DNA from: Prosthecobacter sp. SYSU 5D2
GTDB lineage: Bacteria; Verrucomicrobiota; Verrucomicrobiia; Verrucomicrobiales; Verrucomicrobiaceae
NCBI RefSeq assembly: GCF_039655865.1
Contig: NZ_JBBYXL010000008.1
Location: 186,001-250,000, forward strand
Length of the DNA: 64,000 nt
Direction: 5' to 3'
Part shown: one piece after another, positions 5,308-54,149 of the stretch
How positions within the stretch are numbered: position 1 is the first letter of the stretch
How the letters are laid out: every line of letters starts with the position of its first letter
Translations under genes and position numbers: made by a program
Notes under the pieces: model-generated
The model's input: the letters and a program-made list of their open reading frames with translations, nothing else
Told to the model about the DNA's origin: nothing
The model's database searches: none

Positions 5308-6150
5308 ATGAACCTGCGCTTCCCTTTCCTTTTGTCCGTCCTTTTGACCACCTGCGCCCTGGAGGCCGAGATGCCGGAGGCGCTGCCGCTTTGGGAAAAA
5401 GGGGCACCGGGATCGGAGGGGAGGATGGCGGAGGCGGAGCGGACGGAGGGGAAGAATGTGGTGAATGTCCACAGCCCGTCCATCACGCCTTTTATTCCGG
5501 CCAAGGACGGCACGGGCGTGGCGGTGATCATTGCGCCGGGCGGCGGGCATTCGAAGCTGTGCCTGGGGCATGAAGGGTATGCGCTGGCGGAGTGGTTCCA
5601 GGCGCGCGGCATCGCGGCCTTTGTGCTGAAGTACCGGCTGGCCCGCGAAAAGGGCAGCACCTATACCATCCAGGACCACGCGATGGCGGACATGCGCCGG
5701 GCCATCCGTACGGTGCGGACGCGGGCCAAGGACTGGGGAATCAATCCAGAGCGCATCGGCGTGCTGGGCTTTTCCGCAGGCGGCGAGCTGGCAGCGTTTG
5801 CGGCGATGAAGAATGATCCGGGCAATGCCGAAGCGACGGAGGTCATCGAGCAGGCCAGCAGCCGGCCGGATTTCCAGGCGCTGATTTATCCGGGCACCTC
5901 CGGCCTGTTCTCAGCGGAAAAGGGCATGCCGCCGCTGTTCATCGCCTGTGGTTACGGCGACCGCCCGGACATCGCCGAAGGCATGGCCACGCTGTATCTG
6001 AAATACAAGGCTGCCGGAGTGAAGGCGGAGCTGCACATTTACAGCAATGCCGGCCATGGCTTCGGCTACAAACCCGATTCGACCACCGCCGCCGGCCGCT
6101 GGCCGGAAAGGTTCACGGAATGGCTGCAGGACAGCGGGCTGCTGAAGTGA
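5308..6150 (+). CDS. Secreted alpha/beta hydrolase (acetyl-xylan-esterase-like)
   Basis: A 280-aa hydrolase with an N-terminal signal peptide (MNLRFPFLLSVLLTTCALEA); the Cys near the cleavage region could make it a lipoprotein. The oxyanion loop is IIAPGGGHSKL, the nucleophile elbow GFSAGGE, a likely Asp lies in ACGYGDRPDIAEG, and the His in SNAGHGFGYKP. This is the arrangement of the BD-FAE/esterase-lipase family, often active on acetylated polysaccharides. It lies 74 bp after recQ and upstream of the DUF1501 pair. A carbohydrate-esterase role is inference from family and context. Confidence 0.85.
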   Translation: MNLRFPFLLSVLLTTCALEAEMPEALPLWEKGAPGSEGRMAEAERTEGKNVVNVHSPSITPFIPAKDGTGVAVIIAPGGGHSKLCLGHEGYALAEWFQARGIAAFVLKYRLAREKGSTYTIQDHAMADMRRAIRTVRTRAKDWGINPERIGVLGFSAGGELAAFAAMKNDPGNAEATEVIEQASSRPDFQALIYPGTSGLFSAEKGMPPLFIACGYGDRPDIAEGMATLYLKYKAAGVKAELHIYSNAGHGFGYKPDSTTAAGRWPERFTEWLQDSGLLK

Positions 6151-6196
6151 GGGGGCAACGTCTTGACATTCGGGGATCTGACATCACTTTTTTTGC

Positions 6197-6346
6197 ATGG
6201 AAACCGAAGCTGATACGCCGCCGAAAATCCAGGCCAAGCTGGATGAAGCTGCCCATGGTACCTTTATGGAAGGCAGCCGCGCTTCCATCGAACTCATCAT
6301 CGCCCGCAGCGGAGGCGAGACCTCGACGAACGCCTCTGAAAAATAG
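6197..6346 (+). CDS. Possible 49-aa small protein
   Basis: An ATG at 6197 opens a 49-codon frame ending with TAG at 6344-6346 (starts METEADTPPKIQAKLDEAAH, ends in STNASEK). The product is hydrophilic and acidic with no recognised family. A perfect TTGACA lies at 6163-6168, but I see no good -10 hexamer at the right distance. It fills the gap between the esterase and DUF1501 genes. Codon choice resembles the neighbours. No homology was available, so confidence is low. Confidence 0.4.
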   Translation: METEADTPPKIQAKLDEAAHGTFMEGSRASIELIIARSGGETSTNASEK

Positions 6347-6396
6347 GTTTCCCTATTGTCTCAACTTTGGTTAGAACCTCTTTGCTGGCGGCGTCT

Positions 6397-7818
6397 ATGT
6401 CCGCAGCAGAGATGAGCGCTGATTTCCATCCAGTACTGTCGCGACGCCGGTTCATCGGCGGGGCGGGCGTGGGCTTGTCCAGCGTCGCGTTTTCGCATCT
6501 GCTGGGAGCGGAGGCGATGGGCGCGAGCACGGGCGGGCAGCGGTCGCATTTTCCGGCGAAGGCGAAGCGGGTGATCTGGCTGTTCATGCACGGCGGGCCC
6601 AGCCATGTGGATTTGTTTGATCCCAAGCCGGAGCTGATCCGCCATGCGGGCAGGCCGCTGCCGGAGAGTTTTGGCCCGGTGGAGACGCGGCGGAAGGTGG
6701 CGCAAAATCCGCTGCTGGGGCCGGTGAAACCGTTCCGGCCACGCGGGAGGAGCGGCATCGAGATCAGCGATTTCCTGCCGCACATGGCGGAGCTGGCGGA
6801 TGAGATGTGTGTGATCCGAAGCTGCCACGGGGACAGCGTGAACCATCCGCAGAGCGTGTACCAGATGAATACGGGCTCCATCCTGATGGGCAAGCCGAGC
6901 CTGGGGAGCTGGGTGGCGTATGGCCTGGGGTCGGACAATCAGAACATGCCGTCCTTTGTGGTGATGCCGGATCCTGGCGGCGGGCTCAAGGGCGGGCCGC
7001 CGGCGTGGGGCAACGGCTTCCTTCCGGCCACGTATCAGGGCACAACGATGCGGCCAGGTGAGAACCCGATTTTGCATCTGAACCCGGCCCATGACCGCAG
7101 CCCGGCCCGGCAGCGGGCGACGCTGGACCTGGTGAACCGCTTCAATGCCCTGCACCAGGAACGGCGCGGGGAGGACACGCATCTGGATGCGCGCATCCGC
7201 TCTTATGAACTGGCTTTCCGGATGCAAACAGCGGCCCCGGATACAGTGGACCTGTCCCAGGAATCCGAGGCGACGAAAAACCTCTACGGCCTGGACCAGC
7301 CCGTGACGCGGGAGTTTGGCACACGCTGCCTGCTGGCGCGGCGGATGATCGAGCGCGGCGTGCGATTTGTGCAGCTTTATTCCGGCGATACCAATGGCTG
7401 GGATGCGCATGAGGACGTGCTGAAAAATCACACCGACTACGCCGCCCGGACCGACAAACCGGTGGCCGGCCTGATCCGCGATCTCAAGCAGCGCGGCCTG
7501 CTGGAGGACACGCTGGTCATTTGGGGCGGCGAGTTTGGCCGCATGCCGATGAGCGAAAAAGGCGTGGGCCGCGACCACAATCCGTGGGGTTACTCGACCG
7601 TGCTTTTTGGTGCCGGTGTGAAGCATGGCCATGTGCACGGAGCCACGGATGACATCGGCCTGCGGGCGGTGCATGACAAGGTGCATGTGCATGACCTGCA
7701 TGCCACGATTTTGCATCTCCTGGGCATGGATCACGAAAGCCTGACCTACCGCCACAATGGCCGTGACGAGCGGCTGACGGATGTGGCCGGTCATGTGGTG
7801 AAAGGCATCCTTACCTGA
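6397..7818 (+). CDS. DUF1501 family secreted protein (sulfatase-like fold)
   Basis: The start ATG at 6397 was chosen over a TTG at 6367; another ATG at 6412 is possible. The N-terminus has a twin-arginine-like signal (LSRRRFIGGAGVGLSS). The body has the DUF1501 landmarks: VIWLFMHGGPSHVDLFDPKP near the start, DNQNMPSFVV, the RCLLARRMIERGVRFVQLY block, and WGGEFGRMP with GRDHNPWGYS near the end. DUF1501 proteins are related to the alkaline phosphatase/sulfatase superfamily, are abundant in Planctomycetes and Verrucomicrobia, and typically pair with DUF1549/DUF1553 genes. The next gene is exactly such a partner, 5 bp downstream. The substrate is unknown. Confidence 0.93.
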   Translation: MSAAEMSADFHPVLSRRRFIGGAGVGLSSVAFSHLLGAEAMGASTGGQRSHFPAKAKRVIWLFMHGGPSHVDLFDPKPELIRHAGRPLPESFGPVETRRKVAQNPLLGPVKPFRPRGRSGIEISDFLPHMAELADEMCVIRSCHGDSVNHPQSVYQMNTGSILMGKPSLGSWVAYGLGSDNQNMPSFVVMPDPGGGLKGGPPAWGNGFLPATYQGTTMRPGENPILHLNPAHDRSPARQRATLDLVNRFNALHQERRGEDTHLDARIRSYELAFRMQTAAPDTVDLSQESEATKNLYGLDQPVTREFGTRCLLARRMIERGVRFVQLYSGDTNGWDAHEDVLKNHTDYAARTDKPVAGLIRDLKQRGLLEDTLVIWGGEFGRMPMSEKGVGRDHNPWGYSTVLFGAGVKHGHVHGATDDIGLRAVHDKVHVHDLHATILHLLGMDHESLTYRHNGRDERLTDVAGHVVKGILT

Positions 7819-52345: not shown

Positions 52346-52624
52346 ATGGCTAAAACAGCATCTACCACACCACGCAAACCCAACCCAGCCCTGATGAAAC
52401 CCGTCCAGCCGGATGAAGTCCTGGCTGCTGTCGTTGGCTCCACCCCCCTTTCCCGCGGCGAACTGACCAAAAAAGTCTGGGACTACATCAAGGCCAAAGG
52501 CCTGCAGGACCAGAACAAGAAGACCCTGATCAATGCGGACGAAGCCTTGAAGAAGGTTTTCGGTGGCAAAGAACAGGTGACCATGTTTGAGATGACCAAG
52601 CTCATCTCCGGTCACGTGAAGTAA
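52346..52624 (+). CDS. Stand-alone SWIB/MDM2-domain protein
   Basis: A 92-aa protein that is essentially one SWIB domain after a basic N-terminus (MAKTASTTPRKPNPALMKPV). The domain reads DEVLAAVVGSTPLSRGELTK, VWDYIKAKGLQDQNKKTLIN, then DEALKKVFGGKEQVTMFEMT. SWIB domains are known in eukaryotic chromatin remodellers and in a few bacteria such as chlamydiae, where they occur alone or fused to topoisomerase I. A DNA- or nucleoid-related role is likely but undetermined. The gene is alone, with a probable promoter in the gap to 52186. Confidence 0.92.
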   Translation: MAKTASTTPRKPNPALMKPVQPDEVLAAVVGSTPLSRGELTKKVWDYIKAKGLQDQNKKTLINADEALKKVFGGKEQVTMFEMTKLISGHVK

Positions 52625-52644: not shown

Positions 52645-52968
52645 TTAAGATGGCTGGAGGTTCGCCTCCAGCCATTTTTCTTTTTGGGCACGGCCCAGCG
52701 CCTTGAAGACCCGCTCTGCCTTCAGCGCGGCGGACATGTCCGCATGGCACCAGGAGCCGATGAGCCATAGCGGGCCGCGCCCGCGTGTGTATTTGGCCCC
52801 CTTCCCCTCCCGGTGCATGTCCAGCCGCCGGGGCAGGTCATTGGTGATGCCGCAGTAGAGGCTGCCATCCCGGCAGCGCAGCACATACAGGCACCAGGGC
52901 TTGGGCACTGCAGCTAAGTCAGCGACAGCGGTGTCAACAGCGGCAGCCGCTTCAGCAGAGGGGTTCAT
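52645..52968 (-). CDS. GIY-YIG nuclease domain protein
   Basis: A 107-aa protein from ATG 52968 (52983 also possible). The GIY-YIG core reads CLYVLRCRDGSLYCGITNDL, then RRLDMHREGKGAKYTRGRGP, then a short helix (ALKAERVFKALGRAQKEKW). It is close to the UPF0213/YhbQ type of small GIY-YIG proteins of unknown role. The longer frame up to 53187 is not supported by the family. It is convergent with the SWIB gene. Confidence 0.88.
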   Translation of the reverse strand: MNPSAEAAAAVDTAVADLAAVPKPWCLYVLRCRDGSLYCGITNDLPRRLDMHREGKGAKYTRGRGPLWLIGSWCHADMSAALKAERVFKALGRAQKEKWLEANLQPS

Positions 52969-53052
52969 GGCAGGCGTTAGCATGGGCAAGCGCAGTATGT
53001 TCCACCCCTTGTTAAAGGAAGGCAAAACGTTTGATGTGCCACTCTGTGGGCT

Positions 53053-53250
53053 GGATGTGTTCTGCGAAGGTGAGTTCGCGGTCCCAAAGGCGGTCGCCCG
53101 CAGAACTATCCGGCTTCTTTGGCGGTGCCCTTTTCCCAACGTCCGTCTTTGCCGAAAACGAATGCGGTGGGTCATCCGCACACTCAAAGACGGCCGGATA
53201 GTTCGGCGAAGGAATCCAGGGCAGCGATCCGTATGACGCCGAACACATCC
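53053..53250. repeat. Nested inverted-repeat element between map and GIY-YIG genes
   Basis: The gap from 52969 to 53321 (353 bp) has no convincing gene but is densely structured. Outer arms GGATGTGTTC (53053-53062) and GAACACATCC (53241-53250) are perfect; inside lie GAACTATCCGG (53103-53113) with CCGGATAGTTC (53194-53204), and CCGTCTTTG with CAAAGACGG (left copy near 53143, right copy near 53184). The centre has GCGG...CCGC. It may be a MITE-like mobile element, a structured RNA or an orphan repeat; its downstream location after map suggests also a termination role. Confidence 0.6.
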
Positions 53251-53321
53251 GGCCTACGGCCCGGCGCGACGATTGACACAGGGCAAGCGCCCATGTGACC
53301 GGCAATCGCGGATTGCTCGAC

Positions 53322-54149
53322 CTAAAACAAAGCACTCACCGGTAGCGGGGTCAGGTCCTCGACACCTTTGGGGAACATGCGCTTGCGCAGCGTCAGTACT
53401 TCGGGCTCTTTCTCGGTCACCAGCACCACATGCTCAAAGTGAGCACTGGGCTTACGGTCCTGGGTGATGGCAGTCCAGTTGTCAGAGAGCACACGCGTTT
53501 TGGCGGTGCCCAGATTGATCATGGGCTCAATGGCCAGCGTCATGCCAGACTTCAGCCGGGGGCGGTCACCTTTGCGGCCATAGTTCGGGATCTGCGGCTC
53601 TTCATGAAGCTTGCGCCCCACCCCGTGGCCGACGAATTCACGCACCACAGTGTAACCGTACTGGATGACATGCTCCTCCACGGAGGCGCACAGATCACCC
53701 AGCATCCAGCCATCGCGGGCGTGGCGGATGGCGACGTGGAGGGATTCCTCCGTGGCCGCCAGCAGGTGCAGGGTTTCTTTGGCCACATTGCCGACGGGCA
53801 CCGTCAGGGCGTTGTCACCGATCCAGCCATTGTATTCAATCCCGACATCAATTTTCACAATGTCGCCGTCCTGGATCACGCGGGGGCCGCCGATGCCGTG
53901 GACGACTTCTTCATTGATGGAGATGCAGATGTGGCCGGGAAATTTGCGATAGCCCAAGAAGGCGCTTTTGCAGCCCCGGGCTTTCATTTCTGCCGCAGCG
54001 GCGCGGTCCACCTCGCCGGTAGTGATGCCCACCTGGGCCAGGGCGGCCGTTTTCAGCAGGATGTCGCGGGCCATCTGGCAGGCCTCGCGGATGCCCTGCT
54101 GTTGGGCACCGTGGCGGGTGAAGATCTTGTTGCTGCTGAGTAAACCCAT
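53322..54149 (-). CDS. map: Type I methionine aminopeptidase
   Basis: A 275-aa cytoplasmic enzyme that removes the N-terminal Met from new proteins. Metal and catalytic residues are visible: H84 in EVVHGIGG, D101 and D112 in IVKIDVGIEYNGWIGDNA, His in VGHGVGRKLHEEP, and Glu in LAIEPMIN and FEHVVLV. It begins 10 bp past the secY stop as last gene of the ribosomal cluster. adk, which often lies between secY and map, is not here. Confidence 0.95.
   Translation of the reverse strand: MGLLSSNKIFTRHGAQQQGIREACQMARDILLKTAALAQVGITTGEVDRAAAAEMKARGCKSAFLGYRKFPGHICISINEEVVHGIGGPRVIQDGDIVKIDVGIEYNGWIGDNALTVPVGNVAKETLHLLAATEESLHVAIRHARDGWMLGDLCASVEEHVIQYGYTVVREFVGHGVGRKLHEEPQIPNYGRKGDRPRLKSGMTLAIEPMINLGTAKTRVLSDNWTAITQDRKPSAHFEHVVLVTEKEPEVLTLRKRMFPKGVEDLTPLPVSALF

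Follow-up and report, generated by a model that had tools for sequence, protein, structure and literature searches.

In Escherichia coli, the Y and Z repetitive extragenic palindromes (REPs) are GTAG-tagged hairpins with a mismatch in the stem. Two unlike REPs are combined as inverted pairs in bacterial interspersed mosaic elements (BIMEs), and these flank the gene of the REP-associated tyrosine transposase (RAYT), yafM/TnpA-REP, on both sides (PMC2817692, PMC8266576). Binding and cutting of single-stranded REPs by RAYT has been reported for E. coli and others (PMC8266576). In Pseudomonas fluorescens SBW25 the unit is described as an inverted REP doublet with a spacer (REP doublet forming hairpins, REPIN), for which two alternative folds were proposed, a long hairpin or a 'clover' (PMC3116915). 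GTAG repeats are also described in the phylum Verrucomicrobia, namely in Opitutus terrae, where most members of one family carry GTGG as a mutated form of the tag (PMC3733652, section 5). Here we describe a 212-bp inverted-repeat element from Prosthecobacter sp. SYSU 5D2 which resembles these systems in its tag, stem mismatch, inverted pairing of unlike halves, spacer, alternative folds and association with RAYT genes. It is located at positions 53046..53257 of a 64,000-nucleotide window (contig NZ_JBBYXL010000008.1, positions 186,001 to 250,000, forward strand). The element very probably consists of two long-loop REP hairpins arranged as a head-to-head doublet (BIME/REPIN) and belongs, as a non-autonomous mobile element, to a RAYT/TnpA-REP. 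Direct support comes from its two-hairpin anatomy, from a family of copies, from compensatory changes within the REPs and from like hairpins found beside the RAYT genes of one clade. This kind of element is already known; its long hairpin loops are unusual.

Structure of the element

The doublet was delimited by comparison with same-genome copies and by its paired inverted REPs. Its parts are as follows.

53046..53257, no strand: whole REP doublet, 212 bp, head-to-head, tags outermost
53046..53114, + strand: left REP, 69 nt
53046-53049, + strand: tag of the left REP, GTGG (degenerate GTAG)
53050-53056/53108-53114, + strand: outer stem of the left REP
53057-53059/53106-53107, + strand: internal loop of the left REP
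53060-53066/53099-53105, + strand: inner stem of the left REP, TTCTGCG/CGCAGAA
53067-53098, + strand: loop of the left REP, 32 nt
53115..53192, no strand: spacer, 78 nt
53193..53257, - strand: right REP, 65 nt
53254-53257, - strand: tag of the right REP, GTAG (CTAC at these positions)
53247-53253/53193-53199, - strand: outer stem of the right REP
53244-53246/53200-53201, - strand: internal loop of the right REP
53237-53243/53202-53208, - strand: inner stem of the right REP, TTCGGCG/CGCCGAA
53209-53236, - strand: loop of the right REP, 28 nt

Both halves are built on one plan: a tag, a 7-bp outer stem, an asymmetric internal loop (GTG opposite CT), a 7-bp inner stem and a loop. Each is an imperfect palindrome with an unpaired tag at one end, the window copy ending in GTAG on one side and GTGG on the other. 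Folded as DNA, the left REP has a z-score of -3.53 (1 of 200 shuffles as good) and the right one of -3.89 (0 of 200). The spacer folded alone reaches only -1.39 (19 of 200); it is seen in the consensus of nine copies, and in the long-hairpin fold its two ends can be base-paired.

The REPs of the family are 65-72 nt long and have loops of 28-35 nt that are little conserved, whereas the E. coli REPs measure 29, 35 and 37 nt (PMC8266576) and the usual REP length is 20-40 bp (PMC3733652). We take length as a descriptive and not as an excluding criterion, because RAYT loci of the same clade (L167, L170 and L171, see below) also carry short forms.

An earlier, sequence-only reading of 53053-53250 had noted three perfect inverted pairs nested in a larger imperfect stem. 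The 10-bp pair (53053-53062/53241-53250) and the 9-bp pair (53143-53151/53185-53193) are present with the lengths that it gave. The middle pair is also there and is 12 bp long (53103-53114/53193-53204), not 11. All three sit in or overlap the imperfect inverted-repeat arms. That reading was right to see an inverted-repeat element, drew it slightly too small and overlooked that the arms also pair locally, giving two separate hairpins. The three outcomes that it had named as refuting were a lack of further copies, a lack of covariation and a fold no more stable than that of shuffled sequence. None of them came about: copies and covariation are described below, and the fold exceeds that of shuffled sequence, for which the z-scores are -5.29 (RNA, + strand), -3.28 (RNA, - strand) and -3.89 (DNA), with 0 of 200 shuffles as good in each case.

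Family members and their distribution

A repeat family was among the earlier suggestions, and further copies were indeed found in the same genome. The DNA search (E <= 0.001) gave 15 rows corresponding to 10 distinct places, the other five rows being opposite-strand matches. These places comprise the window copy, eight more full doublets (69-78% identity) and a half copy at C7:108327 (C denotes a contig, G a genome and L a locus in our numbering). Related doublets at three more places (C3:587459, C18:52199 and C13:76294) came from a motif search. The covariance-model scan found at least 26 REP matches in this genome, few compared with E. coli BIMEs; it scored 130 of 2916 first-look candidates (130 per genome), so match counts are possibly low. 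In relatives, the element used as a DNA query matched 13 of 56 genomes, the own one included, all in one genus. The matches in relatives are partial.

The repeats are extragenic. Among nine window-type copies, five have Pfam-supported neighbours on both sides, two on one side and two on neither. The neighbours include genes for a histidine kinase, a glycosyltransferase, a sulfatase, argS and other genes.

Neighbouring inverted REPs form a unit: 60 head-to-head doublets were collected from loci of 12 genomes, and 14 REPs lay outside such doublets in these loci by the same script. The loci of this set were picked for holding REP matches, and at least 11 of 14 stem pairs were required, a filter which dropped the doublet C3:587459 (L074). 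Doublet length is 152-247 bp (median 184), and the two halves usually have different arm codes, which distinguishes the family from the SBW25 REPINs. Another set of 39 doublets was collected by arm motifs with up to two mismatches; spacers in it are 18-111 nt long, whereas the partners in some O. terrae dimers are 1-2 bp apart (PMC3733652, section 14; compared by text). Tandem doublets occur in L141 (G009, contig C74), with four in a row at 6115-6872 and two at 1091-1469, the start-to-start distance being 184-195 bp.

Covariation within REPs and the two folds

Compensatory changes, whose absence would have spoken against the sequence-only reading, are found in the REP stems. In an alignment of 42 REPs from 10 genomes, hand-picked from 81, 98.1% of the stem cells are paired. 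Two-sided changes occur at five of the 14 stem pairs and involve 30 cells, compared with a shuffled mean of 5.7 (0 of 500 shuffles as high) and with at most 8 cells when the partners are slid by 1-3 columns. All five pairs are among the seven of the inner stem, and the changes fall mostly on two of them. The loop roughly keeps its length, while its sequence is hardly conserved.

These changes can be followed across the doublets. In the set of 39, local pairing of the inner-stem arms covers 528 of 546 cells and pairing across the doublet 431 of 546, and 37 doublets have unlike arm codes. In the set of 60, local pairing (817 of 840 cells, a figure raised by the stem-pair filter) again exceeds cross-doublet pairing (673 of 840). 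The inner stem differs between the two REPs in 55 of these 60 doublets, mostly with compensation within each hairpin, and the differences peak at stem columns 17 (39/60) and 18 (18/60). Like-code pairs number 5, compared with 16.0 +- 3.3 after random re-pairing within genomes, and the lowest of 5000 shuffles also gave 5; as copies within a genome are related, this control does not provide a strict probability. Counted by distinct genome and code pair, like pairs are 5 of 31.

The existence of heterodimers has been described, and their predominance over homodimers, seen in most families, 'has no obvious explanation' (PMC3733652, section 14). Which of the two REPIN folds is used by RAYT was left as a hypothesis (PMC3116915, Figure S11 legend). 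The unlike inner stems fit selection on the two-hairpin 'clover' fold. We speculate, with considerable doubt, that selection keeps the REPs of a doublet unlike, one or two inner-stem base pairs acting as a partner code that is compensated in each hairpin and that would either favour a RAYT-readable clover over the long hairpin or let the enzyme distinguish the two ends. If so, the variable loops of about 30 nt might also stop the halves from zipping together, a corollary that we consider just as tentative.

RAYT genes and adjacent REPs

Y1_Tnp (PF01797) matches were found in all 39 genus genomes searched, and RAYTs sharing at least 55% identity with the one of G008, which constitute the clade considered here, in 13 of them. 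Tagged hairpins lie beside the gene at all 13 clade loci, and long-loop ones at 12. Ten loci were assigned long-loop REPs by a script (whose output also included spurious hairpins in L161, L167 and L170) and three were assessed by reading the flanks by eye. According to this reading, L167 (G012) and L171 (G023) pair a long-loop with a short-loop REP and L170 (G022) has the short-loop form alone. The mixed and short-only forms within one RAYT clade outline a possible path between the two designs. The stem start of the window family (GTAGGCCGGATGTG) recurs at L161, L162 and L163 (genomes G008, G011 and G018); a one-base variant of it stands beside the RAYT part of the own genome, and the other nine clade loci differ more.

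The genes between such REP ends are Y1/HUH RAYTs. The best solved relative of the RAYT profile is 4er8, TnpArep (E 8.9e-07), and the RAYT fragment of the own genome scores 26.7 bits with Pfam Y1_Tnp. H149, H151 and Y209 are invariant across 12 aligned RAYT sequences; we take the two histidines to be the HUH motif and Y209 the catalytic tyrosine.

Among the 80 of 332 wider relatives that were kept, the nearest named one in genome contigs comes from a Verrucomicrobiaceae metagenome-assembled genome (63% identity), which suggests a host in or near that family. Shared tagged hairpins are present near 13 of these 80, and the long-loop design, judged by the printed arms, was found among the 13 only in L241 (63% identity; its coordinates suggest the G016 locus). 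The script used confuses doublets with single hairpins, so this result is indicative.

Neighbourhood of the window copy and insertion

The surroundings of the element include the following features.

53258..53275, no strand: outer flank, whose GCCGGRCC part (read inward to the tag) is common to some other copies
53322..54149, - strand: map, type I methionyl aminopeptidase (TIGR00500, 287.9 bits), its stop codon (53322-53324) 64 nt from the element
52645..52968, - strand: small GIY-YIG-domain gene (PF01541, 53 bits), its ATG (52968) 77 nt from the element

A few bases beyond the tags are common to some copies, so the mobile unit may extend past the tag by some 10-15 nt and would then be slightly longer than tag-to-tag. 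In the flank columns of 24 doublet ends column information is at most 0.76 bits, and shared bases were also judged by eye.

The open reading frame (ORF) 52645-53187 is a TTG-start reading of the GIY-YIG gene that would cross the left REP, the ATG at 52968 being the likelier start. A terminator-like hairpin of 14 pairs with a T run is located at 52647-52678, past a 92-amino-acid ORF (52346-52624).

The size of 212 bp, the inverted ends and the dispersion of copies beside unrelated genes would suit a classical miniature inverted-repeat transposable element (MITE), that is, terminal inverted repeats of a DDE transposon moved in trans with target-site duplication. Such a duplication was not detected in the flanks (up to 40 nt) of 12 own-genome doublets. 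The exact direct match at the tags is 0 in eight doublets, 1 in two, 2 in one and 4 in one, and the longest direct match within 40 nt of the tags averages 5.3, compared with 4.9 (largest 11) in 132 mismatched flank pairs. The direct repeats thus stay within what chance gives for unrelated flanks. Moreover, Y1/HUH RAYT genes are found between such ends, and changes are compensated inside each half. On the strength of the RAYT loci above all, and of the flank repeats, we rejected the classical MITE as highly improbable. Of the 'MITE-like' label given in the sequence-only reading, the notion of a small non-autonomous mobile element stands and that of target duplication does not.

The map locus was compared using 37 map matches in 36 of the 39 genomes, 30 of which became loci with up to 1.5 kb of flank each. 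The GIY-YIG gene and the next ORF lie beside map only in the own locus and were not found in the other 29 within this flank, so the insertion at map could not be dated.

This bears on the earlier idea that the ribosomal operon ends in a structured RNA, considered here as a regulator or terminator kept for its function at the 3' end of the secY-map operon. Its position 64 nt past map, the strong RNA fold on both strands and a terminator-like site in the spacer (- strand, 53181-53162; 3 such sites in the scanned region against 0.9 expected) would agree with that role. Against it, copies stand beside the unrelated genes listed above, and the other map loci showed no GIY-YIG neighbour within the flank examined. 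Rfam returned no curated family for the element, its two matches being far under the gathering scores and both outside it. We rejected this explanation in view of the spread of copies and regard it as scarcely credible.

Mobility, present state and possible roles

By analogy with known RAYT systems, each half of the REP doublet would fold into its own tagged hairpin on single-stranded DNA, a RAYT dimer would bind both hairpins and cut near the tags, and the doublet would be re-inserted elsewhere without target duplication.

Several results weigh against such a RAYT-mobilised pair of hairpins. The outer stem has no two-sided change in the 42 aligned REPs, and the 10 pair types of the alignment were equalled in 213 of 500 shuffles. 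For 59 of 60 doublets, the long single hairpin is computed to have an energy more than 1 kcal/mol below that of the two REPs and the spacer together. It is also the RNAalifold consensus of nine copies, where compensatory changes occur in 8 of 57 pairs, yet the covariation term is unfavourable (+0.79). The RAYT scores 77.3 bits with NCBIfam NF047646 (REP_Tyr_transpos), below the cut-off of 80, and Pfam Y1_Tnp gives the L142 RAYT 22.6 bits with a cut-off of 23. REP and RAYT are seen to vary together, as far as a comparison without a tree suggests. No empty site was found at map among the 30 loci, and movement itself is inferred.

Co-occurrence is loose as well. Covariance-model matches at E <= 0.001 are present in 29 of 39 genomes, 12 of the 13 with a RAYT of the clade and 17 of the 26 without. 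At E <= 1e-10 the numbers are 8 of 13 and 6 of 26 (one-sided Fisher p = 0.023), with the reservation that this cut was chosen after the list was seen and that REPs from 10 of the same genomes had gone into the model. The RAYT-bearing genomes without a strong match (G001, G016, G022, G023 and G028) have hairpins of other sequence beside RAYT. Conversely, G015 has at least 33 REP matches and no RAYT of the clade. Since genomes with REPs and without such a RAYT exist, one has to reckon with a lost enzyme or an incomplete assembly.

The host genome itself has two RAYT parts, each beside a different doublet: residues 73-239 (C-terminal) near the end of contig C3 and residues 1-80 (N-terminal) near the end of contig C18. 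Each part is followed by a partial DDE_Tnp_1_4 match (profile positions 18-354; 346-433, 28.6 bits with a cut-off of 34.7). The simplest reading would be one RAYT gene interrupted by one insertion sequence at an assembly break. Two other RAYT relatives in this genome (C11:70365 and C18:32066) have 39% identity. As the copies have diverged (69-78% identity) and the RAYT gene appears to be split, the family in the host genome is probably old and now dormant or largely inactive. Partial Y1_Tnp matches near contig ends of G000 (C2:238-411, C16:114849-115022, C20:19-195 and C20:27080-27250) may belong to another repeated insertion sequence at which the assembly broke.

Where it now lies, the window copy most likely has no dedicated role; it may be a passive hairpin within the 3' portion of the map transcript. 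Alternatively, the REP doublet could have been co-opted by the host for 3' mRNA protection or for gyrase or nucleoid-protein binding. Such roles are reported for REPs of other bacteria (PMC3733652, PMC2817692), and convergent genes, Pfam-supported on each side, enclose three copies (C8:76559, C8:134157 and C3:566788). The degenerate tag of the window copy and the divergence of the copies are what is expected of relics, and we consider co-option unlikely.

The family was not found in print, nor was a paper on a Prosthecobacter RAYT, in the one open library searched. The REP/RAYT system is hereby extended to a genus, probably of the Verrucomicrobiaceae, whose REP loops are unusually long. The family contributes many natural pairs that retain the local fold while the long one is weakened. 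Overall, its unlike partners with local compensation constitute natural variants for two questions, why heterodimers prevail and which fold is used.
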